Below are positions 14,792 to 35,391 of a stretch of DNA of 56,884 nucleotides, in pieces. The position numbers and the translations under genes are program-made. The notes under the pieces were generated by a model. That model worked only from the letters and a program-made list of their open reading frames with translations. It had not been told where the DNA came from and ran no database searches. This stretch comes from an uncultured Alphaproteobacteria bacterium (lineage in GTDB: Bacteria > Pseudomonadota > Alphaproteobacteria > Rhodobacterales > Rhodobacteraceae): assembly GCA_902524655.1 (NCBI GenBank), contig CABZEG010000007.1, positions 1 through 56,884 on the forward strand, in the 5' to 3' direction. The first letter of the stretch is position 1; each line of letters begins with the position of its first letter.

Positions 14792-14804
14792 TAGGAGGAA
14801 CTAT

Positions 14805-15410: not shown

Positions 15411-15412
15411 TT

Positions 15413-16432: not shown

Positions 16433-18121
16433 ATGAATTTTGAAGAGGCAACTAAAAAGGTGTTAGAGACTGATGATTTATACCAGTTTTCCGAATACAC
16501 ACATGATGGTCAAATTTACAAGACCTTCGTAAATACCCCACAGACATTGCATGAATTGCTTGAGTATGGAAAAAAAAATCGTCAGTGGGACGAATTTATT
16601 ATTTATGAGAATGAACGAATTACATATTCGGAGTTTTTAGAAAAAGTGAATAGCGTGGCCGCTTTCCTTCAGAAAGAGTTGGGAGTAAAAAAAGGTGACA
16701 AAGTCGCAATAGCAATGCGAAATTTTCCCGAATATCCAATTCTATTGATGGGTATCGTATCCTTAGGAGCGATAGTTGTTTTTGTAAATGCTTGGTGGAC
16801 AACACGTGAAATGGAGTATGGTTTTAATGATAGTTCGGCAAAAATATGCTTCGCAGATAAGGAAAGATTAAATGTTATTCTTCCGTTCGCAAAAGCCTAC
16901 GGAATTAAATTAATTGGTATTCGATCGGAACATGATAATAACGTTTTGGACTATGAAGAGGAAGTGGCCTCCTATCCATCAAAAAAGTTGAAGGCAACTA
17001 ATATTGATCCAAAAGACGATTTTGGAATTATGTATACTTCTGGATCAACTGGAAACCCTAAAGGCGTTGTTCTTACTCATAGGGGAGCTATCTCAGCGGT
17101 ATTTTCTTGGTTAATGATGGAAAAGATAGGTTCATATGTGTATCCTGAAAAAGTGGCTGCTAAGAAACCATCTAGCATTCTTCTATTATCTCCTTTTTTT
17201 CATGTGAATGGTTCTCATCCAAACTTCTTATACGGGATTGCGAAAGGGTCAAAGATTGTCTTAATGTACAAGTGGGATCCAAAACAAGCCGTTGATATAA
17301 TCGAAAATGAAACCATAACTCTAATTCGAGCAGTTCCAACTGTTATTTCTGATCTCGTTGAGGAAGCTATCGCGCAAAGTAAATCTTTGAGCTCTTTGGA
17401 AACACTAAATGCTGGAGGTGCAAAACGACCGCCTCCAAATGTAGCACATGAAAAAAAAGCGCTGCCTTCGACAGATATTTCTTCTGGATATGGAATGACA
17501 GAGACCAACGCTTTAGGCGTGAGTGTATCTGGTGATGAGTATTTAGAAAATCCTGAATTAGCTGGTAGGCTAATTGGCGTCCTTCAAGACATAAAAATTG
17601 TTGATGAAAATGATAAGCAAGTTAAGTCTGGAGAAGTTGGTGAAATTGCAATAAAAAGTCCAGCAAATATGCGGTGTTACCTCAACAAAAAGATAGAAAC
17701 CGACCAGGTTCTTATAAATGGCTGGATGCATACCGGTGATTTAGGTTTTATAAATAGTCAAGGTTTGGTAACGATTGTTGATCGCAAAAAAAATATAATC
17801 ATCAGAGGAGGTGAAAATATATCGTGTTTAGAGGTTGAGGGTGTGCTTCAAAAGCATCAATCAATACTAGAATCTATAGTTTTTGCAGTACCAAATGAAC
17901 GATTTGGAGAAGAGGTTGGTGTCTGTATTAATTTAAAGAAAAAAGAAACTTTAAAAAAAGAAGACATAAATCAATTTCTTAATGATAAGCTAGCGAAGTT
18001 TAAAATACCTACCCATTATTGGCTGACAGATGATATCCTGCCTAGAGGTGCTACCGATAAACTTGATAGAATTACAACGCGTGAGCTTTGCTTGGATAAT
18101 AAAATAAAAAGTTTGCTGTAA
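16433..18121 (+). CDS. AMP-forming acyl-CoA ligase
   Basis: ANL-superfamily ligase of 562 residues that activates a carboxylic acid to its CoA thioester via an acyl-AMP. The P-loop YTSGSTGNPKGVVLTHRG lies near residues 202-219, the aromatic motif SGYGMTETN near 353 and the hinge region MHTGDLGFIN...DRKKNIIIRGGENI follows. The C-terminal lysine is in PRGATDKLDR rather than the usual TGK. It is fifth in the operon, with crotonases on both sides, so it probably charges the operon's substrate. Substrate size is not predictable. The ATG is preceded only weakly by a purine run, perhaps relying on coupling from the gene 6 bp upstream. Confidence 0.92.
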   Translation: MNFEEATKKVLETDDLYQFSEYTHDGQIYKTFVNTPQTLHELLEYGKKNRQWDEFIIYENERITYSEFLEKVNSVAAFLQKELGVKKGDKVAIAMRNFPEYPILLMGIVSLGAIVVFVNAWWTTREMEYGFNDSSAKICFADKERLNVILPFAKAYGIKLIGIRSEHDNNVLDYEEEVASYPSKKLKATNIDPKDDFGIMYTSGSTGNPKGVVLTHRGAISAVFSWLMMEKIGSYVYPEKVAAKKPSSILLLSPFFHVNGSHPNFLYGIAKGSKIVLMYKWDPKQAVDIIENETITLIRAVPTVISDLVEEAIAQSKSLSSLETLNAGGAKRPPPNVAHEKKALPSTDISSGYGMTETNALGVSVSGDEYLENPELAGRLIGVLQDIKIVDENDKQVKSGEVGEIAIKSPANMRCYLNKKIETDQVLINGWMHTGDLGFINSQGLVTIVDRKKNIIIRGGENISCLEVEGVLQKHQSILESIVFAVPNERFGEEVGVCINLKKKETLKKEDINQFLNDKLAKFKIPTHYWLTDDILPRGATDKLDRITTRELCLDNKIKSLL

Positions 18122-18137
18122 AAAAGAGAGGAATAAC

Positions 18138-18923
18138 ATGAAAGAGTATGAATTTGTTAGGGTACACATAGATGATCACATAATGTCGGTAACAATTAAT
18201 CGGCCAGAGGTTTATAACGCGGTGCATCCACCATTGAGTTTAGAATTAAATGAAATATGGGATAATTTTGGTAAAGATAAAGACCTTTGGGTTGCTGTTT
18301 TGACTGGAGAAGGAGACAAGGCTTTTTCAGCTGGGAATGACCTAAAATATTCGGCTTTACCGGCGGATCAAAAAGTTCAGCAACCGTCATCAGGATTTGC
18401 TGGATTAACTAGAAGGTTCGATAGAACAAAACCAATTATAGCAGCTGTTAACGGCTTCGCAATGGGAGGAGGCATGGAGACTGCTTTATGCTGCGACATA
18501 ATTATAGCCTCTGAAAATGCTAAATTTGCTTTGCCAGAAGTGAAGGTAGGATTTTTTGCTGCGGCAGGAGGAGTTCAAAGGCTTAGTCGTCAAATTGGTA
18601 AAAAGGCAGCTGTGGAAATAATGTTAACAGGAAGAAATGTTTTAGCAGCAGAGGCTTTGGAATTGGGAATTATTAATGAAGTCGTGCCGCATTCTTCTCT
18701 AATGGAATTAGCGATGGAAAAAGCGAAAGCTATTGCCTCCAATTGTCCATCATCGATACGGTATTCTATGGAAGCGCTAAACCATATGGACCACCTTGAA
18801 AACTATCCCGATGCTTTACGTAAAAGTGCGGAATTGATTGAGCTACTCCGACAAACTGAGGACCATAAAGAAGGTGTTTCTGCTTTTGTAGAAAAAAGAA
18901 AACCTAATTGGAAAAATCAATAA
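18138..18923 (+). CDS. Enoyl-CoA hydratase
   Basis: A 261-residue crotonase with both classical hydratase glutamates apparently in place: one in AMGGGMETALCCDI and one in FALPEVKVGF. The N-terminal MSVTINRPEVYNAVHPP, the oxyanion FSAGNDL and the C-terminal FVEKRKPNW are standard. It would add water across a 2-enoyl-CoA to give a 3-hydroxyacyl-CoA in the cytoplasm. GAGAGGAATA precedes the ATG. It is sixth in the operon, 16 bp after the ligase and 15 bp before two SDRs that could oxidise its product, so a short beta-oxidation-like sequence is plausible. Confidence 0.92.
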   Translation: MKEYEFVRVHIDDHIMSVTINRPEVYNAVHPPLSLELNEIWDNFGKDKDLWVAVLTGEGDKAFSAGNDLKYSALPADQKVQQPSSGFAGLTRRFDRTKPIIAAVNGFAMGGGMETALCCDIIIASENAKFALPEVKVGFFAAAGGVQRLSRQIGKKAAVEIMLTGRNVLAAEALELGIINEVVPHSSLMELAMEKAKAIASNCPSSIRYSMEALNHMDHLENYPDALRKSAELIELLRQTEDHKEGVSAFVEKRKPNWKNQ

Positions 18924-18938
18924 AAAAAAGGAAATCTT

Positions 18939-19712
18939 ATGACCAATCTTTTTGATCTAACAGGAAAGACTTGTCTTCTAACGGGCGCATCCAAGGGTAT
19001 TGGAAAATCGATGGCGATTGCTCTCGCACAACATGGAGGCACTGTAATAATTTCAAGTAGAAAGATAGACGTCCTTAAGAAGACAGCTGAAGAAATAAAT
19101 GAAACAATAGGGGAAGAGAGAGTTTTTCCGGTAGCAGCAAATGCGGGGAGAAAGGATGAACTGGAGAACTTGGTTAATGCATCAAGGCAGCTTTCTGGGA
19201 AAATAGATGTATTGGTTTGTAATGCTGGGGTTAATCCTCACTATGGACCAATGTCAGATATATCAGACGAAGCATATGATAAAACAATGGCGACAAACGT
19301 AAAATCAAATCATTGGCTATGCCAAATGGTTGTTCCAGATATGATGGCGAGGGGAGGAGGATCAATTATGATTACCTCTAGTGTAGGAGCATTCGAACCA
19401 TCTCTGAATTTGGGCACTTACCATATTTCAAAATTAGCGGTAATAGGATTAGTTAGAAATTTAGCTGCTGAATATGGTCCCCAAAATATTAGGGTAAATG
19501 CAGTATGCCCCGCTATAATAAAAACAGATTTTGCAAAAGCATTATGGGATGACGACTTAAAGGCTAAGGAGGCAGTTTCTAAAATACCGCTTGGTCGTTT
19601 AGGGGAACCAGAGGATCTACAAGGGCTCGCGGTATTTCTAGCATCTAACGCAAGTAGTTATATCACCGGCCAGGCGATGACTGTGTGTGGTGGTGGATAT
19701 ATGTGGCGTTAA
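18939..19712 (+). CDS. Short-chain dehydrogenase/reductase (DHRS4-like)
   Basis: Classical SDR of 257 residues. TGASKGIG lies at about 15-22, CNAGVNPHYGP near 93, the catalytic Ser in ITSSVGAF and the catalytic dyad in YHISK; the C-terminus VCGGGYMW is typical of the DHRS4-type carbonyl reductase group. SD AAAAAAAGGAAA precedes the ATG. It is seventh in the operon. It probably oxidises the 3-hydroxyacyl-CoA or an alcohol intermediate; NAD versus NADP use is uncertain, though SSRK after strand 2 (Arg) favours NADP. Confidence 0.9.
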   Translation: MTNLFDLTGKTCLLTGASKGIGKSMAIALAQHGGTVIISSRKIDVLKKTAEEINETIGEERVFPVAANAGRKDELENLVNASRQLSGKIDVLVCNAGVNPHYGPMSDISDEAYDKTMATNVKSNHWLCQMVVPDMMARGGGSIMITSSVGAFEPSLNLGTYHISKLAVIGLVRNLAAEYGPQNIRVNAVCPAIIKTDFAKALWDDDLKAKEAVSKIPLGRLGEPEDLQGLAVFLASNASSYITGQAMTVCGGGYMWR

Positions 19713-19728
19713 TAATAAGGAAAAAGAT

Positions 19729-20499
19729 ATGGATATCAAAGATAGAGTAATAGTTGTAACTGGAGCTGCCAGCGGAATAGGTAGATCTCTCGTTAAAATC
19801 TTTTATAAGTATGGAGCAAAGCATGTTGTAAGTGCTGATGTAAATAAGGACGGAATAAACGAGGTCGCAAAGGAGTTTGGCGGAACTGCGATGAAATGTG
19901 ATGTCAGTCGAGAAGGGGATATTGCAAAAGTTATAAGAACAACGGAAAGAGAAATTGGTCCAATATCAATTTTTTGTTCAAATGCTGGCATTGGTCATCT
20001 GGGAGGAATTGAGGTTCCGAATGATGATTGGCAAAAAATTTGGGAAATTAATTTAATGTCACATGTATGGGCAGCCAGACACTTGGTCCCTTTAATGGAG
20101 AAAAGAGGAGAGGGATACTTATTAAATACGGCATCTGCCGCTGGTCTATTGTCACAAGTTGGTGATGCATCCTATTCAACGACTAAACATGCTGCAATTG
20201 GTTTAGGAGAATGGCTTGCATTTTCATATGCGAGGAAGGGTATAAAGGTTTCTATGTTGTGCCCTCAGGGAGTAAGAACCGCGATGACGGATGGATTGGA
20301 TCCAGAGCTCGCTGTTGCTATGAAAGATGGAATGCTTGAACCCGATGATGTTGCCGAGGAATGTGTTAAAACGATAAATGAAGAACGCTTCTTGGTATTG
20401 CCTCACACCGTGGTAGAAAAATATATACAATATAAGACGTCCAATTATGATGGATGGATAGCTGGGATGGCAAAATTAAATGAGAGATTTAGGTATTAG
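19729..20499 (+). CDS. Short-chain dehydrogenase/reductase
   Basis: Classical SDR of 256 residues with TGAASGIG at about 12-19, CSNAGIGHLGG near 85, Ser in TASAAGLL and YSTTK as catalytic dyad. The Asp in SADVN after strand 2 favours NAD. I start it at ATG 19729 with an AAGG site upstream, rather than at the GTG/ATG inside the previous gene, because MDIKDRVIVVTG is the natural SDR N-terminus. It is last in the eight-gene operon, and its stop lies inside the convergent tesB gene, which overlaps it by 11 bp. Substrate unknown. Confidence 0.9.
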   Translation: MDIKDRVIVVTGAASGIGRSLVKIFYKYGAKHVVSADVNKDGINEVAKEFGGTAMKCDVSREGDIAKVIRTTEREIGPISIFCSNAGIGHLGGIEVPNDDWQKIWEINLMSHVWAARHLVPLMEKRGEGYLLNTASAAGLLSQVGDASYSTTKHAAIGLGEWLAFSYARKGIKVSMLCPQGVRTAMTDGLDPELAVAMKDGMLEPDDVAEECVKTINEERFLVLPHTVVEKYIQYKTSNYDGWIAGMAKLNERFRY

Positions 20500-21358
20500 G
20501 TTTGCGTTTCAGAGGACGCATCAGTCCTTCTTGAGCAACGCTTGCAACAAGGGTTCCGTTCTGTGAAAAAACTTTTCCTCTGTTGAGACTTCTTGCAGCC
20601 CCTGAAAATGGACTATCCATTTCATACAAGTACCAATCATTAAAGTTAATTTTTTCATGAAACCACATTGCGTGATCCAAACTTGCCAGCATAACATCTC
20701 CCGAATACGCTGATACACCGTGAGGCCGGTTACCAGAGCCCAACAATGATACATCAGAGGCGTATGCGAGAAAGCAATGATGTACCCATTGATCTTTGGT
20801 ATCAAGGGTACCATCCACTTTAAACCACAAAAAGTTTTTGTCTGAAGTTGGTTCCGGATTGAATAAGTCGGGTGGATCAACATCTCTTATTTCAATTGGC
20901 TTTGGATTTAAAAAATTTGCACGCCTTTTTTCAGGAACTTTATTCGCAATGAGTTTTCTCTGTTCATTCCTATTAAGAACTCCCGAAGGCCCTTTTACTT
21001 CTTTCATCTTATGCTGATGAGACCAACCCTCTTCTTCAATATGAAATGATGCAGCCATATTGAATATTTGTTTTCCATTTTGTATAGCAACCACTCTTCT
21101 TGTTGTGAAGCTTCCACCATCTCGTGCTCTGTCAACCTCGTAAATAATAGGTGTTGATGGATCTCCAGGTCGTATAAAATAAGCATGAAGAGAATGACAA
21201 AGTCGTTTATCAACAGTTTTATAAGCTGCAGCTAACGCTTGAGCAATAACGTGACCTCCAAATACCCTTGATGCGACTTCGCCACCTTCCCCTGAACCTC
21301 GAAATAGATTGCGATCCAATATTTCGATATCAAGAAGTTTCTCTATTTTTTCTTTCAT
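20489..21358 (-). CDS. tesB: Acyl-CoA thioesterase II
   Basis: Double-hotdog TesB thioesterase of 289 residues, hydrolysing acyl-CoA to free acid and CoA. The N-terminal FRGSGEGGEVASRVFGGHVIAQAL is typical. The C-terminal catalytic triad region shows Asp in ASLDHAMWFH, Ser (for Thr) in DSPFSGAAR and Gln in VAQEGLMR. It overlaps the ACAD11-type kinase by 4 bp (ATGA) and is last in the minus operon that starts at the thiolase. Its end overlaps the convergent SDR by 11 bp. In this context it probably relieves trapped CoA esters. Confidence 0.94.
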   Translation of the reverse strand: MKEKIEKLLDIEILDRNLFRGSGEGGEVASRVFGGHVIAQALAAAYKTVDKRLCHSLHAYFIRPGDPSTPIIYEVDRARDGGSFTTRRVVAIQNGKQIFNMAASFHIEEEGWSHQHKMKEVKGPSGVLNRNEQRKLIANKVPEKRRANFLNPKPIEIRDVDPPDLFNPEPTSDKNFLWFKVDGTLDTKDQWVHHCFLAYASDVSLLGSGNRPHGVSAYSGDVMLASLDHAMWFHEKINFNDWYLYEMDSPFSGAARSLNRGKVFSQNGTLVASVAQEGLMRPLKRKPNT

Positions 21359-22380
21359 AGTGCCTTCATTAGTTCATACGCACGCTTAGCTAGCTTTGGA
21401 ACAGATAATGTTTCACGATTTGAGCGTTCAGGATTAGCGGCAATTCCAGACAAAGCCCTCTTTTTTACACCCTGTATAACACATGCCATTCGAAAAAAAC
21501 AGAACGCGAGATAAAAATTAAAATCTTTTATATAGTCGATGTTTCTTAACTCGCAATATTCTTTAATAAAATTTTCATCACTTGGTATTCCTAGAGGCTC
21601 TCTTTTAACACCTTTTAATCCCCTACTAATTTTTCCTGCTGTTTGCTCCCACTGCATGATTAAAGATGCGAGGTCAGCAATCGGATGTCCAGTTGTACAA
21701 ATTTCCCAGTCTATAATTGCAAGTAGTTTTGGCTCATTTTTATCAAATATCATATTATCAAGTCGAAAATCACCATGCACTAGTGAACGAGGAGAGTTAT
21801 CTATAGGTATCCTTTTCGGAAGTTCTTCCATCATTTCGCTCATTTCACTAATTTTTTCCGTTTCCGATGACAAATATTGTTTTGCCCACCTGCTTATCTG
21901 CCTTTCATAGTAATTCCCGTCTGCACCAAAATCTGTTAAACTCACCCTATCGATATTTACTTCGTGTAACGAAGACAATCCTCTATTTATTTCGCTATAA
22001 ATCTTTGCTCTATCGTTTTTAGCTAAACTTGGTAAAGCAGGGTCTTCATAAACTACTCCATCAACGAATTCCATTATATAGAAATCAACGCCTAAAATAG
22101 ACTGATCATCACAATAATGAAGCATCTTTGCGACAGGTACGGGTGTATCATATAAAGCCTTTTGCACTCTATATTCTCGGTCTATGGCGTGTGCCGATTT
22201 TAGTAAGGGTCCATCTGGTTTTCGCCTAATAACATAACTAGTGGTATCTGTCTCCAGTAAAAAGGTTGGGTTCGATTGGCCAATAGAAAATTTTTTTACA
22301 TTATTTAAATGTGAAAACCCGTCGATGGTGTTTGCTAGATAGGGGAGCAGTTTCTCTTTGTTTAATGGATCTTTAGACAT
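21355..22380 (-). CDS. ACAD11-like phosphotransferase (aminoglycoside-phosphotransferase fold), putative hydroxyacyl-CoA kinase
   Basis: A 341-residue APH-fold kinase. It tracks the N-terminal kinase half of human ACAD10/11: SIGQSNPTF (about 32-40), IRRKPDGPLL, SAHAIDREYRV, YIMEFVDGVVYEDP, the catalytic loop HGDFRLDN (202-209, Asp204 as base) and the metal-binding IDWE (223-226), then FYLAFCFFRMACVIQGV. In ACAD11 and in bacterial LvaA this kinase phosphorylates the hydroxyl of a 4-hydroxyacyl-CoA; that is established for those homologues and inferred here. It overlaps tesB by 4 bp and follows the histidine-phosphatase gene by 4 bp, with the matching ACAD gene just beyond. Resistance to aminoglycosides is not implied. 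Confidence 0.93.
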   Translation of the reverse strand: MSKDPLNKEKLLPYLANTIDGFSHLNNVKKFSIGQSNPTFLLETDTTSYVIRRKPDGPLLKSAHAIDREYRVQKALYDTPVPVAKMLHYCDDQSILGVDFYIMEFVDGVVYEDPALPSLAKNDRAKIYSEINRGLSSLHEVNIDRVSLTDFGADGNYYERQISRWAKQYLSSETEKISEMSEMMEELPKRIPIDNSPRSLVHGDFRLDNMIFDKNEPKLLAIIDWEICTTGHPIADLASLIMQWEQTAGKISRGLKGVKREPLGIPSDENFIKEYCELRNIDYIKDFNFYLAFCFFRMACVIQGVKKRALSGIAANPERSNRETLSVPKLAKRAYELMKAL

Positions 22381-22384
22381 TTTC

Positions 22385-23032
22385 CTAACTATAGGTCAGC
22401 AAATGAGCGTTGTCTCCATCGAATTGCGGTGCGTAGTTAAAGCTGTGAAGGTAAAAGGCTTTGGGAGTGTAAATGAACTTTGAGATTGATGTATTTTTTA
22501 TTTGTAAGTTTAATGTCATCATTTCTTCTTTAGGAGCATTGAGGGTTGTTGCTACCACTCTACTTATTGGTCCTCCTGATGTGACAACAACAACTTGTTT
22601 ACAGTCAAGATCACAACTAAACTCGAGCGCACTACTAATTCTTGAAGAAAAGTCTTCCCAGCTTTCAGTCGCATTTGGTAGTTTTGCATTCATCCAGTTG
22701 GTTACCGTTGATCTAAGAGTTTTAAAGTGCGTCTTCCTGTCAGTAAAAATCTCTTCTGGGATATTCGGGCCAAACTCTGCTAATAATAAGTCTCTAAAGT
22801 CATATTCGTTCCAGCCAGGGTGCTTATCAACTTGGCATTTCAAATTAAAATTTTCCAGTGTTTGCTGATGTCTTTTTTGGGTCCCTATAACAACCCTTTC
22901 AGGGGCTATATTTAGTTTGTCGAAAAAGGAACCTAAAAGAGCTGCTTGGTCATGACCTAACTCGGATAAGTTATCGTAATTTTCATGACCAAAAGATGCC
23001 TGAGCATGTCTAATTAGGATTAGCTCACTCAT
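22385..23032 (-). CDS. Histidine phosphatase superfamily protein
   Basis: A 215-residue phosphoglycerate-mutase-fold protein. The first catalytic motif LIRHAQAS places the phosphorylatable His at residue 9. The second, normally SHGG near the C-terminal third, reads VTSGGP (151-155), so the second His is replaced by Ser. A partial substrate pocket is visible at IGTQKRHQQT. It lies between the ACAD11-type kinase (4-bp gap) and dehydrogenase (15-bp gap), which suggests a role in handling phosphorylated acyl-CoAs or in controlling the kinase. Because of the altered second motif the activity is uncertain. Confidence 0.88.
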   Translation of the reverse strand: MSELILIRHAQASFGHENYDNLSELGHDQAALLGSFFDKLNIAPERVVIGTQKRHQQTLENFNLKCQVDKHPGWNEYDFRDLLLAEFGPNIPEEIFTDRKTHFKTLRSTVTNWMNAKLPNATESWEDFSSRISSALEFSCDLDCKQVVVVTSGGPISRVVATTLNAPKEEMMTLNLQIKNTSISKFIYTPKAFYLHSFNYAPQFDGDNAHLLTYS

Positions 23033-23047
23033 AAAGATTTAAAACTG

Positions 23048-24274
23048 TTAGTTTGAGTATCGTCTTAGTTCAGCTCTAGCGACCTGTCTTCTGTGAACGG
23101 CATCTGGGCCATCAGCAAGTCGTAATGTCCTAACGTGTGTCCACATATGAGCAAGAGGCGTGTCTTGACTGATCCCCATTCCGCCGTGCATTTGTATTGC
23201 CTCATCAATAACCTTTAATGCCATTAAGGGTGCCACTACTTTAATTTGGCTAATCCAAGGTTGCGCTGCTTTGACGCCTGCGGTATCCATCATCCAAGCA
23301 GCTTTTAAGCAAAGTAAGCGGCTTTGCTCTATTTCCATCCGGCAGTTCGCAATAATATCGTAGTTTGCTCCAAGTTCTGTTAATTCCTTTCCAAAGGCTG
23401 TTCGTGTTTTAGAGCGCCTTATCATCAACTCAAGGGCTTTCTCTGCTTGCCCAATGGCTCTCATACAATGATGGATTCTTCCTGGCCCTAGTCTTCCTTG
23501 TGATACCTCGAAGCCACGCCCCTCACCAAGAATTAGATTTTCTGCTGGAACCTTCACATCTGTGAATTTACAGTGTCCATGCCCATGCGGAGCATCGTCT
23601 GCACCAAAAACATTCATATATCTAAGTACTTCAAATCCTTCAGAGTCGGCATCTACAAAAAACATTGAATGCCTGGAATGCTTTGCAGCATCTGGGTCAG
23701 TTAGCGCCATAACAATAAAAACTTTACACCTGGGATCTCCAACACCGGAAGACCACCATTTTTGACCATTCAATACCCAATGATCTCCGTCTTTTTTTGC
23801 TTCGAGCGATATATTTGTTGCGTCTGAAGAGGCAACATCAGGCTCCGTCATTAAATAAGCAGATCGGATCTCTCCTTCTAGTAACTTTGTTAACCATTTC
23901 TTTTTGTGGTTTTCATTGCCATAGCGCTCAATTACTTCCATATTTCCCGTGTCCGGTGCGCTGCAGTTAAATACTTCAGCTGCGATACCAACTTTTCCCA
24001 TCTCTTCTGCAAGATAAGCATACTCAACGGTTGATAAACCGTAGCCTTTCTCTGAATCGGTAAGCCAAAAGTTCCAAAGGCCTCTTTCTTTAGCAAGAGA
24101 CTTTAGATGGTTTAATATTTCCACTTGTCGTTCGGTAAATTGCCACCTGCTTCCGGATGGATGCTTTCCTACTTCTTCGTGAAACTCTTGGTCAAGTGGT
24201 TCTATGTCATCTGAAACCATCTGCCTTACTTTATCAATTAATGGTTTTACTTTATCGGTAACGCCTAAATCCAT
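23048..24274 (-). CDS. ACAD11-like acyl-CoA dehydrogenase
   Basis: A 408-residue FAD enzyme matching the C-terminal dehydrogenase half of ACAD10/11. Seen in order: NCSAPDTGNMEV, YLMTEPDVASSDATN (FAD/substrate signature near 140-155), NGQKWWSSGVGDPRCKV, GRLGPGRIHHCMR near 265-277, and HGGMGISQDTPLAHMW near 362. At the C-terminal position where classical ACADs have the catalytic Glu region it reads LADGPDAVHR with Asp388. In ACAD11/LvaC this domain converts a 4-phosphoacyl-CoA to an enoyl-CoA; ordinary dehydrogenation is the alternative. It sits in the minus operon after nitronate monooxygenase (13-bp gap) and before the phosphatase and kinase. Confidence 0.94.
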   Translation of the reverse strand: MDLGVTDKVKPLIDKVRQMVSDDIEPLDQEFHEEVGKHPSGSRWQFTERQVEILNHLKSLAKERGLWNFWLTDSEKGYGLSTVEYAYLAEEMGKVGIAAEVFNCSAPDTGNMEVIERYGNENHKKKWLTKLLEGEIRSAYLMTEPDVASSDATNISLEAKKDGDHWVLNGQKWWSSGVGDPRCKVFIVMALTDPDAAKHSRHSMFFVDADSEGFEVLRYMNVFGADDAPHGHGHCKFTDVKVPAENLILGEGRGFEVSQGRLGPGRIHHCMRAIGQAEKALELMIRRSKTRTAFGKELTELGANYDIIANCRMEIEQSRLLCLKAAWMMDTAGVKAAQPWISQIKVVAPLMALKVIDEAIQMHGGMGISQDTPLAHMWTHVRTLRLADGPDAVHRRQVARAELRRYSN

Positions 24275-24287
24275 GTCTTTCTCCTAA

Positions 24288-25283
24288 CTAACTAAATTTT
24301 AATTTAAACTCTGAAACAGCTGCCGTAAATTCCGAATCTAAATTATGAACAAACTCCGAAACAGTTTCAATTGCTTTAATTGACGCAATGCCTTGCCCGC
24401 ATCCAAAAATTTGTGACCACGCCTTTGGCTTTTCAGATGAAGGGTCAAAATTCATATCTTTGACTGATCCCTCCTGAAGGTTGTCTGGGTCCATGCCAGC
24501 ATTGATAACGGATGGTTTCAAATAATTTCCAGAAACTCCAGTAAAAAGTGATGAAAGAAGTATATCTTCAGCAGAGGAATCGACGATCATATTTTTATAT
24601 GCATCAGTGGCATTTGCCTCTTTTGTTGCAATGAATGGTGAACCGATGTATCCCATGTCTGCTCCCATCATGAGTGAAGCAAGCAAAGCTCGTCCTGTTG
24701 CAATGGAGCCTGAAAGCAACAAGGGTCCCTTGAACCATTCTCTGATTTCTTGAATTAGAGCAAAGGGTGATTGAGGTCCAGCATGTCCTCCGGCACCGGC
24801 CGCCACTGCAATAAGCCCGTCGGCTCCTTTTTCGATAGCTTTTCTAGCGAAAGTATTATTAATAATATCATGTAAAACAGTGCCACCGCATGAATGAGCT
24901 GCTTCATTAACTTCTGGTCGAGCTCCAAGTGAAGTAATCCAAACAGGTACATTCCATTTTACACATATTTCAATATCTCGCATCAATCGTGGATTTGATC
25001 TATGCACTATTTGATTTACGGCAAAAGGTGCCGCAGGATTATCTGGATTTTCTTGGTTATGTCGATCAAGTTCCTCTGTTATACGTTTGAGCCATCTCTC
25101 CAGTTCAATAGGTTCACCCTCTTTCTCGCGGGCATTCAAGGCTGGGAAGCTACCAATAACTCCAGCTTTACACTGTGCAATTACCAAATCCGGTACCGAT
25201 ATAATAAATAGCGGGGCCGCTACCACTGGAAGCTTTCCCGATGTCAATACTGCCGGAAGATTTGTACTACTATGTATATTCAT
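24288..25283 (-). CDS. Nitronate monooxygenase-like FMN protein
   Basis: TIM-barrel flavoprotein of the nitronate monooxygenase/2-nitropropane dioxygenase family, 331 residues. The FMN/phosphate region GADGLIAVAAGAGGHAGP includes the family's catalytic His in GGHAG. Further motifs are PVVAAPLF at the N-terminus, LSGSIATGRALLASLMMGADMGYIGSPFIA for the flavin phosphate, and GCGQGI near the C-terminus. Its start overlaps the thiolase stop by one base and the ACAD gene follows after 13 bp. Members of this family near beta-oxidation genes are often assigned as NMO by homology only; some are enoyl-reductase-like, so the reaction here is uncertain. Confidence 0.87.
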   Translation of the reverse strand: MNIHSSTNLPAVLTSGKLPVVAAPLFIISVPDLVIAQCKAGVIGSFPALNAREKEGEPIELERWLKRITEELDRHNQENPDNPAAPFAVNQIVHRSNPRLMRDIEICVKWNVPVWITSLGARPEVNEAAHSCGGTVLHDIINNTFARKAIEKGADGLIAVAAGAGGHAGPQSPFALIQEIREWFKGPLLLSGSIATGRALLASLMMGADMGYIGSPFIATKEANATDAYKNMIVDSSAEDILLSSLFTGVSGNYLKPSVINAGMDPDNLQEGSVKDMNFDPSSEKPKAWSQIFGCGQGIASIKAIETVSEFVHNLDSEFTAAVSEFKLKFS

Positions 25284-26485
25284 CAGAGAACCTCAAAAAG
25301 GCCTGCGCCTCCCATTCCTCCTCCAATGCACATGGTGCATACGACATATTTCGCGCCTCTCCTCTTCCCTTCAATAAGCGCGTGCCCAACCATGCGAGCG
25401 CCAGACATTCCATATGGATGGCCAATGGAAATTGCCCCACCATTTACATTTAGATTTTCATCTGGAATACCTAACTTGTCTTTACAATACAGAACCTGTA
25501 CGGCAAAAGCTTCATTTAGCTCCCAAAGGTCTATGTCATCCATTTTTAAGCTATGCTTTTCGAGTAGTTTTGGGACAGCAAAAACAGGTCCGATACCCAT
25601 TTCGTCAGGAGCGCAACCAGCAGCCATCATTCCAACATATCTTCCTAGAGGCTCCAAACCCTTCTTTTCTGCGATTTTGGCTTCCATTAGCACAGATGCT
25701 GATGCGCCGTCAGACAGCTGGCTTGCATTGCCTGCAGTTATGTAGCCACCTTCAGACATAGTCAATCCATTTTTAAAAACTGGTGACAACGAAGATAGCC
25801 CTTCAATGTTTGTGCTTGGTCTATTTCCTTCATCTTTCTCGAGCGTTACTTCTTTATCACTTATTTCGCCCGTTTCTTTATCTTGAACTTTCATTGTCGT
25901 TTTGAGTGGCACGATTTCGTCATCGAATGCTCCTCTTTGTTGTCCAGATGCCGTTCTCTGTTGAGATTGAAGTGAATATTCGTCCTGATACTTTCTACTT
26001 ACATTATATCGAGATGCAACGGTCTCGGCAGTCTCAATCATAGTCATATACATGTCAGGTTGATGATCCTTAAACCACGGATCGTAAGCTCTGTATCCAT
26101 TCATCTTATCATTTTGAACAAGGCTAATGGACTCTACTCCTCCGCCTACTGTTACATCCATACCGTCGTTAATTATTTGTTTCGCGGCCGTCGCAATAGC
26201 CATCATGCCACTTGCGCATTGACGATCTATAGACATACCCGGGACTGTAACCGGTAATCCAGCTCTTATAGCGGCCTGTCGAGCAATATTACCTCCGCTA
26301 GATCCTTGCTGTAAGGCAGCGCCCATAATAACATCACTTATCTCATTAGGTTCTATCCCTGCTCTTTCAACTGCCTTTTCAATTGCATGCCCTGCTAACT
26401 CTTGGGCTGACGTGTCATTGAAAGCTCCTCGGTAGGCTTTTCCTATAGGTGTTCTCGCAGTTGATACTATTACGGCTTCTCGCAT
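25283..26485 (-). CDS. Acetyl-CoA acyltransferase (thiolase)
   Basis: Thiolase of 400 residues that cleaves 3-ketoacyl-CoA with CoA to acetyl-CoA and a shortened acyl-CoA. The nucleophilic Cys is in [12 protein letters not shown] (about residue 88), the His in [17 protein letters not shown] and the second Cys in [17 protein letters not shown], all intact. The substrate-type loop NELNEAF is present as [10 protein letters not shown]. It is the first gene with a clear operon link to the following NMO, ACAD, phosphatase, kinase and tesB genes. A degradative thiolase fits this context better than a biosynthetic one. Confidence 0.95.
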
Positions 26486-26579
26486 TTCTTTTCTCCGATA
26501 ATTAAATGAAAACTTTCGTATTAAATATGGCCAATACTACCATACAAATTTTTTCGTACAATCTTTAAACTTAAGACTT

Positions 26580-27071
26580 TTAAGGCTTAACAAACGCTTT
26601 TGTAACCCACTCGGCTGCCAAGATGGGTTTTTCTTGGTTTTCTAATTCTACGATAACATCATAGATCATAGTTATTTCACCAGTATCTTTCTTCTCTATA
26701 TCCTTTAAAGTAAAATGCCCTCTTATTCTTGAGTTTACTGGTACAGGCGAAACAAACCGTAACTTGTTAAATCCATAATTAAGGCCAAAATGTGCCCCTT
26801 TTATTCCCGGGACACAATCGTAAGACATTGCTGAAAGTAACGACACGGACAGAAACCCGTGCGCTATCGTTGAATTTAGGGGGGTCTCTTTCTTTACTCT
26901 TTCAGTATCAAGGTGAATAAAGAAGTGATCCTTTGTTAGATCTGCAAAACTGTTAATCATAGCTTGATCGATAGAGTACCACTCTGATTTTCCAACCAAT
27001 TTTCCTAATTTTTCAGTGACTTTATCCAAACCCAATTTTGTAAGTGCACCATCATTATTTACTTCTCTCAT
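26580..27071 (-). CDS. MaoC-type (R)-enoyl-CoA hydratase
   Basis: Hot-dog-fold hydratase of 163 residues. SIDQAMINSFADLTKDHFFIHLD is the MaoC active-site segment: Asp and His correspond to the catalytic pair of (R)-specific enoyl-CoA hydratases. TIAHGFLSVSLLSAM is the conserved following helix. It would hydrate an enoyl-CoA to a 3(R)-hydroxyacyl-CoA. It lies 94 bp upstream of the thiolase in the same direction and faces the liv operon, so it may open the operon or carry its own promoter. Confidence 0.9.
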   Translation of the reverse strand: MREVNNDGALTKLGLDKVTEKLGKLVGKSEWYSIDQAMINSFADLTKDHFFIHLDTERVKKETPLNSTIAHGFLSVSLLSAMSYDCVPGIKGAHFGLNYGFNKLRFVSPVPVNSRIRGHFTLKDIEKKDTGEITMIYDVIVELENQEKPILAAEWVTKAFVKP

Positions 27072-27312: not shown

Positions 27313-28554
27313 ATGAAACTATTTAAAAAATTTGCGAGTTTTGTGTTGGCTTCGGGAGTATTTTTTAGCTCCTCTACATTTGCAGATACAGTGAAAATTG
27401 CGTTTATTGAGCCTTTATCCGGACCTTATGCCGCGTCAGGTTCACAAGGTTTAGCACAGTTTAAATTTGTAGCTGAGGATCAAATCAACAAAAAAGGTGG
27501 AGTGCTTGGTGGCAAAAACTTTGAAATAATTGGGTTTGATAATAAGCTAAGCGCTAAAGAAGCTGTTATACAAGTAGAGGTTGCAATTGATCAAGGTATC
27601 AGATTCATTGCCCAGGGAAATTCGTCTGGAATAGCGAATGCGATCACCGATCATGTAAAGAAACACAACAAGAGAAATCCAGATAAACGAGTGCTATTTA
27701 TAAATTATTCAGCAGTCGATCCAGCACTTACAAACGACAAGTGTAATTTTTGGCACTTTAGATTTGACGCGAATGCTGACAACAAAATGGACGCTATAAC
27801 TGATGTGATAGCAGGACAACCAGACATAAAAAAAATGTATCTAATTGGTCAAGATTATTCATTTGGGAAGGCCGTTGCAGCAGCTGCTGAGAAATATTTA
27901 GCAGAGAAAACATCTGTTGAAATTGTTGGAAATGAACTTCATCCGATATCAAAAGTTCAAGATTTTACACCATATGCTCGAAAGATCATGGCATCAGGCG
28001 CCGATGCGGTTATTACCGGTAACTGGGGTGCCGACATGCTAAACCTAGGAAAATCTCTAACGGAAGCTGGATATAAAGGACCGATCTATTGCTACTACTG
28101 CTTTGGTGTAGGTATTACCTCAGTGTTCGGTGAAAAAGGTGTTGGGATGCTTAAAGCCGTTGGTGAGGGATTTCATAATCCTGCCCCATCAGACGAATTT
28201 AGGCAGTTTCACAAGAGATTTAAAGCAAAATACCCTGATAATGACTTCGACCAACCTCGAGTTATTAACGCCCTATCAATGTTAGCGTTAGCAATCGACA
28301 AAGCTGGAACGGCAGATGATGTTGTTGCAGTTGCGAAGGCGTTGGAAGGTATGACTTTCGACAGTAAGCTTTTAAATACAAAAGTTTACATGAGGCCTCA
28401 GGACCATCAAGCCATTCAAAACTTACATATTGGAGATCATTCTGCCGATGTTGAGTTTGATATGGATAACTCTGGTTATGGAATGAAAATTTTTAAAACT
28501 GTAGAGATGGCTTCAATGGATAGTCCGACTACATGCAAGATGAAAAGACCATAG
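27313..28554 (+). CDS. Branched-chain-amino-acid-type ABC transporter substrate-binding protein
   Basis: Periplasmic binding protein of the Peripla_BP_6/LivJ family, 413 residues. The N-terminal signal peptide runs from MKLFKKFAS through a hydrophobic core to a likely cleavage near FADT (residue 25). Mature segments include VKIAFIEPLSGPYAASGSQG, VLFINYSAVDPALTNDKCNFWHFRFDANAD, which marks the subgroup that includes aromatic or amide transporters, and GQDYSFGKA. It is the first gene of the operon; a hairpin follows its stop. The ligand is not fixed: LivJ homologues bind branched-chain amino acids, amides or aromatic acids, and the catabolic setting favours an organic acid or amide. Confidence 0.92.
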   Translation: MKLFKKFASFVLASGVFFSSSTFADTVKIAFIEPLSGPYAASGSQGLAQFKFVAEDQINKKGGVLGGKNFEIIGFDNKLSAKEAVIQVEVAIDQGIRFIAQGNSSGIANAITDHVKKHNKRNPDKRVLFINYSAVDPALTNDKCNFWHFRFDANADNKMDAITDVIAGQPDIKKMYLIGQDYSFGKAVAAAAEKYLAEKTSVEIVGNELHPISKVQDFTPYARKIMASGADAVITGNWGADMLNLGKSLTEAGYKGPIYCYYCFGVGITSVFGEKGVGMLKAVGEGFHNPAPSDEFRQFHKRFKAKYPDNDFDQPRVINALSMLALAIDKAGTADDVVAVAKALEGMTFDSKLLNTKVYMRPQDHQAIQNLHIGDHSADVEFDMDNSGYGMKIFKTVEMASMDSPTTCKMKRP

Positions 28555-28569
28555 GCTGAAACAAAATCT

Positions 28570-28598
28570 AAAGCCGAATCTAGTTTAGGTTCGGCTTT
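28570..28598 (+). terminator. Hairpin terminator/attenuator after the binding-protein gene
   Basis: AAAGCCGAA and TTCGGCTTT form a 9-bp perfect stem with an 11-nt loop, followed by a T-rich stretch (TGAAGTTTTT). It lies between the binding-protein stop and the first permease, the same arrangement as in the urt operon. Probably allows partial read-through so the binding protein is in excess. Confidence 0.7.
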
Positions 28599-28625
28599 TG
28601 AAGTTTTTAGAGCTAGAGTTACGAT

Positions 28626-29582
28626 ATGGATTTATTTATTATAAATTTTCTAGACGGCCTAATATATGGGTTATTGCTGTTTATGCTATCCAGCGGATTG
28701 ACCCTTATTTTCTCGATGATGGGTGTTCTAAATTTAGCTCACTCAGCCTTCTTTATGTTGGGAGCGTATTTTGCATATCAGATAAGCCTTTACCTTGGTT
28801 TTTGGGTTGGTCTTTTAGTAGCTCCGCCGATAGTAACTGTATTGGGAGCGCTGGTTGAGCGTTATGGATTGAGGCAAGTGCATCAATATGGTCATGTTCC
28901 TGAATTGATATTTACTTTTGGGCTATATTTCGTGATCGAGGAGTTAGTGCAATATATTTGGGGTAAAAACTTCGTAGAATATCGAGCTCCAGAGTCATTA
29001 GATTTTGTTGCTTTCACGCTAGCAGGAGGGTCTATTCAAGCCTACAAAGTGTTTATGTTATTATGCTCTGTAGCTATTTTCCTTGGGTTATACTATGTTT
29101 TGGCACGAACACGGGTAGGCATGATTATTCAAGCTTCTTTAAGTTATCCGAAAACAGTAGAGTCATTAGGTCACAACGTTCCATTAGTCTTTATGGGCGT
29201 TTTTGGCGTTGGTACTGGATTGGCGGGCATAGCGGGAGTTATTGCGGGGCCTACTTTACAAACCTATCCAGGTATGGCTTTCGCTCTAGGTTCTATAGTG
29301 TTTGTATGCGTCGTTGTAGGTGGACTTGGCTCTCTTTTTGGAGCTTTTGTTGCATCTCTTATTATCGGGTGGATGAAGACATTTGCGGCAGCTTATAATG
29401 TTGGAGCAGCTGAAATACTAATATATTTTGGGTTTGAATATCCCGATAATGTTTACTACCATCCGTGGCGAGACCTGTGGACACTTACGTTGCCACAAAT
29501 AGGACCTTTGCTCCCTTACCTTCTTTTAGTCTTAATATTGATTTTTAGACCTTATGGGCTTTTTGGGAGAAGGGACGCTTAA
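28626..29582 (+). CDS. livH: LivH-type ABC transporter permease
   Basis: Inner-membrane permease of 318 residues with about eight hydrophobic segments. The LivH hallmark SSGLTLIFSMMGVLNLAHSAFFMLGAY lies near residues 21-47, the VVGGLGSLFGAFVASLIIG motif near 230 contacts the ATPase, and the C-terminal IFRPYGLFGRR is typical. Its stop touches the start of livM (one base apart). Works with LivM as the membrane channel. Complete. Confidence 0.92.
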   Translation: MDLFIINFLDGLIYGLLLFMLSSGLTLIFSMMGVLNLAHSAFFMLGAYFAYQISLYLGFWVGLLVAPPIVTVLGALVERYGLRQVHQYGHVPELIFTFGLYFVIEELVQYIWGKNFVEYRAPESLDFVAFTLAGGSIQAYKVFMLLCSVAIFLGLYYVLARTRVGMIIQASLSYPKTVESLGHNVPLVFMGVFGVGTGLAGIAGVIAGPTLQTYPGMAFALGSIVFVCVVVGGLGSLFGAFVASLIIGWMKTFAAAYNVGAAEILIYFGFEYPDNVYYHPWRDLWTLTLPQIGPLLPYLLLVLILIFRPYGLFGRRDA

Positions 29583-30845
29583 ATGGTATCCTATACTTCA
29601 CGGTATTCAAACAACATACTCAAAAGCTTGCTTCCGTGGATAATTAGTACTCTAATTCTGATCATCCTACCTTTTATTTTCACAGGTGGGGGCTCTGTAA
29701 CTATAATGAATCAAATTGGCATTACTATTGTAATGGCCATGAGCTATAACATGTTGCTAGGTCAAGGGGGTATGTTAAGTTTTGGACATGCGGTCTACAT
29801 GGGACTCGGAGGGTTTATTGCTGTTCACATAATGAATTTTGTTGAAGACGGTCTTTGGTTGCCACTGCCTCTCTTGCCTTTAGTCGGAGGATTGGTTGGC
29901 CTCGGGATGGCTACTATAGTTGGAAGTTTTTCTACACGAAAGGCCGGGGTGGTATTTGCAATGATTAGCTTGGGTATAGGTGAACTATTAGCCGCTTCTT
30001 GTATAGTGATAACTGCCTTTTTTGGGGGTGAAGAAGGGGTGTCTGGGGATAGGACATGGGCACCTCCAACTTTTGGCATAGAATTCATAACACAAATCGA
30101 AGTCTACTATTTGATAGCTTTCTGGGTACTCATATCAATCTTTTTAATGTATCTTTTTACCCAAACACCAGTTGGAAAAATGGCTAATGCTGTAAGAGAT
30201 AATCCGGAGAGAGCTGAATTTGTAGGTTATTCTATGCGATGGGTTCGGTATGTCTCTTTTTGTGGAGCTGGTTTTTTTGCAGGTATAGCAGGAGCTTTAT
30301 TTGCTATTAATTTTGAAATTCTCACCGAAGAAAATTTATCAATGGGTATGTCCTTTAACATTTTGTTAGCGACCTATATCGGTGGTATCGGGTTTTTTAT
30401 AGGCCCAGTTATTGGAGCGGTTGGGTTTACTCTTCTTCAGACTGTTCTTGGGCTTCAGACAGATCTCTGGGCACTCTACACAGGTGTTATTTTTATATTA
30501 ACAGTTATGTATGCTCCCAGCGGGTTTACAGGAATTGTTACAATGCATTATGTTCCGTGGCAACTGGGCAAAATTCATCTTCTGTTTAAGCCTTATGCGA
30601 AGATATTGGTTCCTGCTTTGATATTTGTTGCTGGACTTACATCACTTATAGAACTTACCAACCATGTTAGGCATCACAGTCAAGAAACTTCTATAACGCT
30701 TTATTGGATAACGTTTGAAAGTAACACTATCATCCCATGGATAGTGCTGTTAGCAATGACTTTAGGCGGATTTTATGTCTGTAGAGTTTTTGCCAAAGAA
30801 GTCGTAGATGCTTGGGGCGAAGCCAACTATGTTGAGAAAGGCTAA
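29583..30845 (+). CDS. livM: LivM-type ABC transporter permease
   Basis: Inner-membrane permease of 420 residues, about ten hydrophobic segments. YNMLLGQGGMLSFGHAVYMGLGG near residues 55-80 is the LivM core; VRDNPERAEFVGYSMRWVR is the coupling-loop region. The last about 100 residues are an extra C-terminal stretch with two further hydrophobic segments, longer than a standard LivM (about 300-350). This extension is shared with some amino-acid-transporter relatives and its role is unknown. It starts immediately after livH and precedes livG by 4 bp. Confidence 0.9.
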   Translation: MVSYTSRYSNNILKSLLPWIISTLILIILPFIFTGGGSVTIMNQIGITIVMAMSYNMLLGQGGMLSFGHAVYMGLGGFIAVHIMNFVEDGLWLPLPLLPLVGGLVGLGMATIVGSFSTRKAGVVFAMISLGIGELLAASCIVITAFFGGEEGVSGDRTWAPPTFGIEFITQIEVYYLIAFWVLISIFLMYLFTQTPVGKMANAVRDNPERAEFVGYSMRWVRYVSFCGAGFFAGIAGALFAINFEILTEENLSMGMSFNILLATYIGGIGFFIGPVIGAVGFTLLQTVLGLQTDLWALYTGVIFILTVMYAPSGFTGIVTMHYVPWQLGKIHLLFKPYAKILVPALIFVAGLTSLIELTNHVRHHSQETSITLYWITFESNTIIPWIVLLAMTLGGFYVCRVFAKEVVDAWGEANYVEKG

Positions 30846-30849
30846 ATAG

Positions 30850-31611
30850 ATGACATTGGAGGCATTAAAGATCGACAACGTAACAAAAAGCTTTTCTGGA
30901 ACGGAGATAATCAGAGGTTTGAATTTATCTGTAGGAAAAAACGAAAGACACGCTGTAATCGGACCGAATGGAGCAGGAAAGTCTACTTGTTACAACTTGA
31001 TCACTGGACGCTATGAGGTAACGTCTGGAAAAATATTTTTGCATGGTGAAGATATAACAAACTTAAGCCCTTACGAAGTGAAGCGAAAGGGCTTAAGCCG
31101 GTCCTTTCAGATCACAAATATTTTTCCAAAGATGTCAGTTTTTGAAAATGTGAGGTGCTCGCTTTTATGGTCAATGAACTATAAATATTCATTTTGGCAT
31201 TTGTTGGGAAGTCAAAAAGAACTTAACGATCGAGCAGAAAAAATTATTGTTGAGCTCAATCTGGCAGAGAGAAAAAATACTCTTGCCGGTGTGCTTAGTT
31301 ATGCAGAGCAAAGAGCCCTCGAGATTGGAATAACAATCGCTGGCGGCTCAGAAGTCATTCTGCTTGACGAACCTACAGCTGGTATGAGTGTGTCTGAGAC
31401 TGAATACATAGTTGGGCTTATCCGTAAGGTTACGGAGGGCAAAACTTTAGTAGTTGTTGAGCATGACATGGGAGTTGTCTTCGATTTAGCAGACAGAATT
31501 TCGGTTCTCGTATACGGTGAGATTATCGCCACAGGTTCACCTCAGGAGGTGAAAGATAATCAAGCTGTCCAAGAAGCATATTTGGGTGCCGCGTTGGAGG
31601 AGGAACATTAA
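30850..31611 (+). CDS. livG: LivG-type ABC transporter ATP-binding protein
   Basis: ATPase of 253 residues. Walker A GPNGAGKST (about 38-46), the Q-loop region SFQITNIFPKMSV, signature LSYAEQRALEIG (slightly off the LSGGQ form, as is common in LivG), Walker B EVILLDEPTAGMSV and the H-loop VVVEHDMG are visible. Its stop overlaps the livF ATG by one base. Couples ATP hydrolysis to the LivH/LivM channel. Confidence 0.93.
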   Translation: MTLEALKIDNVTKSFSGTEIIRGLNLSVGKNERHAVIGPNGAGKSTCYNLITGRYEVTSGKIFLHGEDITNLSPYEVKRKGLSRSFQITNIFPKMSVFENVRCSLLWSMNYKYSFWHLLGSQKELNDRAEKIIVELNLAERKNTLAGVLSYAEQRALEIGITIAGGSEVILLDEPTAGMSVSETEYIVGLIRKVTEGKTLVVVEHDMGVVFDLADRISVLVYGEIIATGSPQEVKDNQAVQEAYLGAALEEEH

Positions 31612-33476: not shown

Positions 33477-33549
33477 TAAATATTTCCTTGTCTTTACTCT
33501 TTAATTAATTAAATAATAGCACCGTATTCTGGAGTGAAATAGAAAAAAT

Positions 33550-33960
33550 ATGAATGTGAAAAAACTTCGTAATAATCCTTTTCAACATTTTGTTGGTATC
33601 GAGGTATTGAAATTAGGAGAAGGTAAGTCAGTACTGCAACTGGAACTCAAAGATCACCATTTTAATTTATACGGAATTCCGCACGGAGGGGTTCATGCCA
33701 CCCTATTAGACATAGCTATGGGAACGGCCGCAAGCTTTCCAGATAGTTCGGGTAAAGAGGTAGACTCAGTTACTTTAAATTTGTCCGTTGATTATATTGC
33801 GCCACCGTCATCAAGAATTCTTACAGCAAAAGGAAAAGTTACAAAGAAGGGTAAGTCAATTGCTTATTGTACGGCAGAAATATTCGATGAAGATAAGACA
33901 CTCGTTGCTTCAGGCAGAAGTATTTTCAAATTATATGATCGGGAGGGTAGTAAAAGATAA
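33550..33960 (+). CDS. PaaI-type hotdog thioesterase
   Basis: A 136-residue hot-dog thioesterase. The YGIPHGGVHATLLDIAMGTAAS segment (about 44-65) is the PaaI/4HBT active-site pattern, with the HGG backbone and the acidic residue in the following helix. VTLNLSVDYIAPP and KGKSIAYCTAEIFD follow as expected. PaaI releases CoA from hydroxylated phenylacetyl-CoA derivatives; here that is suggestive, because genes for aromatic catabolism are nearby. It is transcribed alone, its stop 7 bp from that of the convergent amidase. Confidence 0.88.
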   Translation: MNVKKLRNNPFQHFVGIEVLKLGEGKSVLQLELKDHHFNLYGIPHGGVHATLLDIAMGTAASFPDSSGKEVDSVTLNLSVDYIAPPSSRILTAKGKVTKKGKSIAYCTAEIFDEDKTLVASGRSIFKLYDREGSKR

Positions 33961-33966
33961 GCTCTA

Positions 33967-35382: not shown

Positions 35383-35391
35383 TGCTTTATC

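Follow-up and report, generated by a model that had tools for sequence, protein, structure and literature searches.

What is a protein of histidine-phosphatase fold doing between a kinase and a dehydrogenase that together resemble mammalian ACAD11? The question is raised by a 56,884-nucleotide contig (CABZEG010000007.1 of assembly GCA_902524655.1; the whole stretch is called the window below) of an uncultured marine alphaproteobacterium of the Rhodobacteraceae, in which a gene of that fold stands between those of an APH-fold kinase and an acyl-CoA dehydrogenase (ACAD). The preliminary description of the window had placed seven open reading frames (ORFs) in this region, and all seven were found on the minus strand at 20489-27071, each with a Pfam match above cut-off. 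The intergenic gaps, in the order from the gene of the MaoC-type hydratase to that of the TesB-type thioesterase, are 94, 0, 13, 15, 4 and -4 bp, and because they are so small a single transcript is predicted for the set. The seven genes very probably form one tight operon. Scans for promoters and terminators gave no more matches than shuffled sequence did.

Judged by sequence, the kinase and the ACAD are orthologues of mammalian ACAD10/ACAD11 and of LvaA/LvaC from the lva operon of Pseudomonas putida. In phmmer searches the window ACAD matched PDB 4hr3 (440 bits), mouse ACAD11 (402 and 399 bits) and PDB 2wbi, ACAD family member 11 (394 bits), whereas its best match among ordinary ACADs, a medium-chain enzyme, scored 149 bits. 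The kinase matched PDB 3dxp (294 bits) and mouse ACAD11 (250 and 246 bits), with the next match at 143 bits. Residues R626, H634, R637 and D753 of mouse ACAD11 make up its phosphate pocket and base, and D220, N225 and R176 are functional residues of its kinase (PMC12440821). Mapped with a constant offset of one residue, R261, R266, H269-C-M-R272 and D388 of the window ACAD correspond to R626, R631, H634-R637 and D753, so that the protein carries both the HCMR motif with its upstream arginine and the catalytic aspartate that replaces the usual glutamate. In the kinase, D204 and N209 correspond to the catalytic D220 and N225, and R160 to the CoA-binding R176; by the offset, the arginine of a DRE motif next to the alpha-C glutamate lies at position 84, which left the CoA-binding R86 of the ACAD11 kinase without an assigned counterpart. 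The motif-by-motif likeness to the two halves of ACAD11 that had been proposed for these genes is thus borne out.

ACADs of this type were found in 85 of 299 genomes of Pseudomonadota and the kinase type in all 85, with the kinase alone in two more, so a split pair is what bacteria ordinarily have. Of the 112 ACADs of ACAD11 type in the loci examined, 111 retain HCMR, the exception (L044) having HTMR. In one genome (G011) an open frame of 778 residues had looked like a kinase-ACAD fusion, but this was rejected, the kinase lying in another, overlapping frame just upstream. As the Burkholderia orthologues of kinase and ACAD can substitute for the corresponding domains of ACAD10 (PMC11342911), the chemistry of such pairs is established for orthologues. 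The phosphorylation route previously suggested for the window is therefore known chemistry, demonstrated by others and supported here by orthology, by the pocket residues and by the published work (PMC12440821, PMC11342911); for this operon it is predicted. The new part of the locus is the subfamily to which the histidine-phosphatase-fold protein belongs.

The main oddity of that protein, absent from the preliminary description, is that serine has replaced its second catalytic histidine. The protein has the fold of branch 1 histidine phosphatases (PF00300, 72 bits), with an RHG-type motif, the nucleophile histidine and the second arginine (R8, H9 and R54). Its best match among solved structures, both by profile (57 bits) and in a Foldseek comparison of a structure model, is PDB 9mmh, a histidine family phosphatase of riboflavin synthesis from Aquifex. 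The model, built from three sequences, has the expected fold (predicted local distance difference test score, pLDDT, 72; predicted template-modelling score, pTM, 0.72). Equivalents of R8, H9, R58 and E82 are present in the alignment with 9mmh, but H149 of 9mmh is Ser152 in the window protein.

To collect relatives we used a profile (A2) rather than the single sequence, because the latter misses distant members: in 190 genomes of the class it found only 5. The profile was built from six members, all of them serine-bearing, and the best 9 candidates per genome were scored, so that members may have been missed. In the 299 genomes it yielded at least 49 members in 47 genomes at 136 bits or more, with the next match, among the matches listed, at 59 bits; a gap of 77 bits is not explicable by one serine column of the profile. 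None of the 42 distinct PDB chains listed belongs to the subfamily, because the 57 bits of the best of them are far below this gap. Position 152 is serine, and Arg8, His9, Gln11, Arg54 and Glu76 are invariant, in all 53 sequences made up of the 49 members and four relatives. With plasmid records and further named genomes added to the phylum sample, the set grew to 87 distinct sequences, and each of these six residues is present in 87 of 87.

Forty other histidine phosphatases served as controls; they were hand-picked from lower matches of the profile, not drawn at random, and 39 come from genomes with the ACAD. All 40 have histidine as the second catalytic residue. The subfamily differs from them at two further positions, having Ala12 in 87/87 (serine or threonine in 38 of the 40 controls) and Gly50 in 87/87 (serine in 40/40). 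The window protein shares an RHA motif with a few others (7 of the 87 have it). We considered His203, present in 81/87, as a compensating histidine; the window protein has Gln203, in a region of the model (residues 197-215) with pLDDT below 50. On a quick tree of members and controls the subfamily requires two label changes, one member (L190) falling on a long control branch, and a single origin would still be compatible with that tree. No fusion of a Ser152 protein with the kinase or the ACAD was found among the ORFs searched.

Co-occurrence and linkage both tie the Ser152 protein to the pair. The kinase is present in 45 of 47 genomes with the Ser152 protein and in 42 of 252 without it (Fisher, 1.5e-26), and the ACAD in 44 of 47 against 41 of 252 (2.7e-25); neither test is corrected for kinship, and two further searches behind these counts scored the best 6 and 7 candidates per genome and may likewise have missed some members. 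In the family of the window, none of 10 genomes has the pair without the Ser152 protein. Outside the class of the window, kinase and ACAD are both present in 34 of 34 genomes with the protein, which is itself missing from just 1 of 35 genomes with the pair.

In the stretches around 53 members, mostly about 7 kb per side and less at contig ends, a kinase was found for 28, on the same strand in every case. Over the full set, a kinase lies within 4 kb of 50 of 87 Ser152 genes, again always on the same strand (50/50), and for 30 of 87 the stretch holds an ACAD of ACAD11 type as well as a kinase; in one locus (L272) the kinase is 5.6 kb away on the opposite strand. Linkage was seen for 25 of 49 members from the phylum sample, 9 of 19 from named genomes and 13 of 15 from plasmid records, the last chosen from 38 with a Ser152 protein, near-copies and others being left out. 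Neither a kinase (30 bits or more) nor an ACAD of ACAD11 type was found within about 7 kb of any of the 40 controls, which are mostly of one motif type. The linked or unlinked state changes at least nine times on the quick tree. These results support the Ser152 protein as a functional partner of the kinase-ACAD pair.

Approached from the other side, among 80 named loci chosen by closeness of their ACAD, 28 have a kinase within flanks of 8 kb (some shorter), and two (L041 and L043) have a Ser152 protein. Adjacency is thus frequent when one starts from the phosphatase and infrequent, in that sample, when one starts from the ACAD. In four of the 80, from Paraburkholderia and Trinickia, an ordinary histidine phosphatase that keeps its histidine motif lies directly upstream of the kinase; two of the four were scanned, and Pfam confirms both (113 and 119 bits). 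Here a phosphatase may have been recruited to the pair a second time, independently. Inspection by eye of 14 named loci without the subfamily recognised no other phosphatase by the kinase, a weak negative because the ORF picker chose wrong frames where the DNA was GC-rich.

The linkage recurs in three phyla, in Pseudomonadota, Deinococcus and Streptomyces. Ser152 protein, kinase and HCMR-bearing ACAD stand in one cluster in 10 of the 15 plasmid records, from Azoarcus, Caballeronia, Burkholderia arboris, Pseudoalteromonas, Ideonella, Azospirillum, Rhodobacteraceae S2214, Deinococcus radiodurans and two Streptomyces, whereas the Haematobacter and Cupriavidus metallidurans records have the Ser152 protein without a nearby kinase. 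The Sulfitobacter plasmids mirror the window, with short-chain dehydrogenases/reductases (SDRs), a thiolase and/or a nitronate-monooxygenase-type flavoprotein, the Ser152 protein, the kinase, an IclR regulator and an ABC transporter. One of them carries an extra histidine phosphatase with the HGG motif kept (L268:2-673; 53 bits to the subfamily profile), which shares the strand of the Ser152 protein and lies about 6 kb upstream. In two loci of Pseudomonas type (L299:7717-8028 and L188:6564-6872) a protein of 103-104 residues lies between Ser152 protein and kinase; the one of the two that was scanned, in L299, is an SCP2 domain. Their size is close to that of LvaB of P. putida (12 kDa), a likeness of size alone.

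From these observations, we propose that the operon is an entry route to beta-oxidation for 4-hydroxyacyl-CoAs or similar compounds. The kinase would phosphorylate the hydroxyl of the acyl-CoA, the ACAD would expel the phosphate by means of FAD and its Arg/His pocket to give the 2-enoyl-CoA, and the MaoC hydratase and thiolase would process that product; this main line, drawn from orthology, is the most likely course. TesB may release stalled acyl-CoA. The phosphatase-fold protein would be a third partner of the pair and no bystander, acting off the main line as an accessory that strips the phosphate from those 4-phosphoacyl-CoAs or 4-phosphoacids which are no substrate for the ACAD, such as the wrong stereoisomer or one with the wrong chain. 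That His9, both arginines and Glu76 never vary suggests that phospho-transfer chemistry is retained, and the equally strict retention of Ser152 points to a specialised pocket, not to decay. His9 would then carry out the dephosphorylation and Ser152 would reshape the phosphate pocket; retained chemistry, specialised pocket and accessory status together favour repair of stranded phospho-acyl intermediates. Loss of a catalytic histidine need not abolish hydrolysis, since in rat fructose-2,6-bisphosphatase it lowers activity less than ten-fold (cited in PMC10728186). Both the phosphatase activity and the substrate of the Ser152 protein are predictions, and we give the explanation as a whole, route and repair together, about an even chance of being right.

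Several observations weigh against it. In the other members of the window's class, all 40 genomes of the 299-genome sample that have the pair lack the Ser152 subfamily, so the protein is accessory and the route does not need it. Two genomes from the window's own family (G402 and G431, loci L164 and L156) have the protein without kinase or ACAD at the cut-offs used, and some members may thus serve another purpose; one further genome (G422) has it without an ACAD of ACAD11 type. As many as 37 of the 87 members have no kinase within 4 kb, the unlinked copies that were inspected stand among unrelated genes (by eye, homologues of mreB, leuA, gatB and recQ, for example), and on the three Sulfitobacter plasmids the ACADs beside Ser152 protein and kinase are not of ACAD11 type (below 130 bits to the ACAD11 profile). 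The linkage control is also soft, 29 of the 40 controls carrying HGNSLR, which we take to be the motif of housekeeping phosphoglycerate mutase. The unlinked copies and the two genomes without the pair would suit a protein that acts on some other phosphate ester, such as a fragment of CoA or of a nucleotide, and that stands near the pair because both belong to regulons of acyl-CoA degradation. We think this improbable, given the near-complete association with the pair outside the class and the recurrence of the linkage in three phyla. It is still less probable, and indeed very doubtful, that the protein works on the main line by removing phosphate productively from 4-phosphoacyl-CoA, as was suggested for Pseudomonas citronellolis (PMC6692424): in ACAD10/11 and LvaC the ACAD itself eliminates the phosphate (PMC12440821, PMC11342911), plain hydrolysis would merely regenerate the hydroxyacyl-CoA, and the pair occurs by itself in those 40 genomes.

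The main rival to repair is that the protein is a sensor or regulator which binds 4-phosphoacyl-CoA or the kinase and curbs phosphorylation. There is precedent in ACAD10, whose HAD domain has lost one Asp of its DxD motif, shows hardly any phosphatase activity and holds the kinase back (PMC11342911); the Ser152 subfamily is likewise short of one core residue, always the same one. In addition, the P. citronellolis histidine phosphatase gene stands where P. putida has LvaB, an interactor of the kinase LvaA (PMC6692424), and proteins of this fold that have lost catalytic residues can turn into binders (PMC10728186). However, those binders, from fleas, had lost the nucleophile, whereas the Ser152 proteins keep His9; a pure binder would have no obvious need for the invariant His9, arginines and Glu76, and fusion to kinase or ACAD was not seen. 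A regulator is accordingly possible, though we hold it unlikely. A different doubt concerns the substrate: the kinases linked to Ser152 proteins are diverse, down to 26% identity to that of the window, and the enzyme might phosphorylate a hydroxyl at another position, or another hydroxylated acyl-CoA. This seems a slender prospect, since the ACAD pocket for a 4-phosphate is conserved and both proteins are closest to enzymes of the ACAD10/11-LvaA/LvaC group. Repair of stranded 4-phosphoacyl-CoAs thus remains the reading that we prefer.

The operon shares features with several known systems. As in ACAD10, which besides its kinase and ACAD domains has a phosphatase-type domain with an incomplete catalytic set, a phosphatase fold accompanies the pair; unlike in the mammalian proteins, the window encodes the parts in separate genes, and the extra protein is of histidine-phosphatase fold, not HAD. 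The P. putida lva operon also has kinase and ACAD split and the same chemistry, according to papers that cite Rand 2017, but in the window the kinase gene is separated from that of the ACAD by the phosphatase-fold gene alone, and the operon includes the thiolase, MaoC, TesB and flavoprotein genes. A further parallel is the levulinate cluster of P. citronellolis LA18T, where a histidine phosphatase family protein (PCLA_07f0393, likened to the window protein by description, not by sequence) accompanies LvaA and LvaC homologues and an SDR, with no LvaB; its authors raised the possibility that it takes the phosphate off 4-phosphovaleryl-CoA and asked for functional studies (PMC6692424, 2019). In a P. 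delhiensis genome, by contrast, the single match to the subfamily profile lies before the kinase, not after it. The preliminary description was thus right to leave the phosphatase-fold protein's role unexplained, but the point was not quite new, phosphate removal having been proposed in 2019. The word serine does not occur in the text of that paper, and among open-licence PMC papers, by their titles and the starts of their abstracts, we recognised no study of the Ser152 protein or of its missing histidine.

Within the genus of the window the arrangement is stable. The operon ACAD is present in 12 of 21 other genomes searched (58-91% complete), at 93-100% identity, and the order thiolase, flavoprotein, ACAD, Ser152 protein, kinase is kept in all 12 loci (L012-L023), a conservation far beyond chance; these loci had 1.5 kb flanks that cut the end genes and left MaoC and TesB outside. 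Outside its own group, the closest named ACADs, 73-76% identical, come from Rhodobacteraceae and their kin, and the class used for the window in the counts, Alphaproteobacteria, was assigned from the closest named ACADs. Co-occurrence of the three genes in the class follows lineage: in the window's family the pair always comes with the protein, and elsewhere in the class the pairs of the 299-genome sample all lack it. Beyond the sample, two class exceptions (G051 and Azospirillum thermophilum) have Ser152 protein, kinase and ACAD together, and in another (G117) the Ser152 protein is alone in its stretch. The source genome (1.77 Mb in 72 contigs, 71% complete) has on contig C16 a second kinase of the same type (L198:6877-7947), after a carboxyltransferase-like ORF identified by eye; no ACAD11-type ACAD lies beside it in that 16 kb stretch. 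In two relatives (G200 and G204) the genome encodes, elsewhere, another ACAD of ACAD11 type besides the first.

Coordinates of the operon, of its neighbours in the window and of the ordinary histidine phosphatases found in other loci
Feature	Position	Strand	Evidence
MaoC-type enoyl-CoA hydratase	26580..27071	-	Pfam PF01575, 73 bits
Acetyl-CoA C-acyltransferase (thiolase)	25283..26485	-	Pfam PF00108/PF02803; NCBIfam TIGR01930, 433 bits, above cut-off
Nitronate-monooxygenase (NMO)/FabK-like flavoprotein	24288..25283	-	Pfam PF03060, 80 bits
ACAD10/11-LvaC-type dehydrogenase, predicted 4-phosphoacyl-CoA to enoyl-CoA	23048..24274	-	Mouse ACAD11, 402 bits; pocket residues
Histidine-phosphatase-fold protein, Ser152 subfamily	22385..23032	-	Pfam PF00300, 72 bits; motif residues
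APH-fold kinase, ACAD10/11-LvaA type, predicted 4-hydroxyacyl-CoA kinase	21355..22380	-	3dxp, 294 bits; mouse ACAD11, 250 bits
TesB-type acyl-CoA thioesterase	20489..21358	-	Pfam PF02551, 122 bits
Acyl-CoA ligase, enoyl-CoA hydratase and two SDRs, convergent genes	16433..20499	+	Pfam/NCBIfam; ORF list
Branched-chain-amino-acid-type ABC transporter, five genes, divergent	27313..32312	+	Pfam on 4 of 5 genes
Ordinary histidine phosphatases before kinase and ACAD	L102:6079-6813, L109:5868-6776, L115:5186-6766, L120:5970-6791		RHGD and LHGG motifs

Some of the remaining genes fall short of a finer assignment. The thiolase scores 613 bits against PRK07108, slightly below the cut-off of 615, TesB 258 bits against TIGR00189 (cut-off 293) and the flavoprotein 70 bits against NCBIfam FabK (cut-off 453). 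By Pfam and NCBIfam, none of the seven operon genes encodes a CoA ligase or a 3-hydroxyacyl-CoA dehydrogenase, and it was too strong to call the operon a self-contained disposal route. The convergent plus-strand genes, among them a first SDR (18939-19712) identified by eye, possibly belong to the same pathway, and the divergent ABC transporter is a possible importer of the operon's substrate; a likewise-annotated transporter follows Ser152 protein and kinase on the three Sulfitobacter plasmids. Further genes of acyl-CoA and ester/amide catabolism flank the operon at 13359-16426 and 32316-37038, comprising a GST, an enoyl-CoA hydratase, a DSBA-type protein, a zinc-type reductase, a beta-lactamase-family esterase, an amidase, a hotdog thioesterase and a second acyl-CoA ligase.

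For annotation, the signature RH[GA]QA together with a serine, mostly within [TS]SGG, for the second catalytic histidine separates the Ser152 subfamily from alpha-ribazole phosphatases and phosphoglycerate mutases. Accumulation of phosphorylated hydroxyacyl-CoAs may do harm, and 4-phospho-hydroxybutyryl-CoA has been speculated to add to the symptoms of a human disease (Paquay et al., PMC11342911). It is a tentative thought, and one that we rate as rather unlikely, that bacteria and animals have each paired a 4-hydroxyacyl-CoA kinase with an altered phosphatase-fold partner, in animals the ACAD10 HAD domain with one Asp lost and in bacteria a histidine phosphatase with His changed to Ser, both serving as governor or safety valve against the build-up of 4-phosphoacyl-CoA. 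If so, a single invariant substitution would mark off the Ser152 subfamily as a functional class of its own, new to the histidine phosphatase superfamily. With a protein tied to the kinase in three phyla and a single swapped residue, the control of 4-phosphoacyl-CoA would be open to simple enzyme tests.

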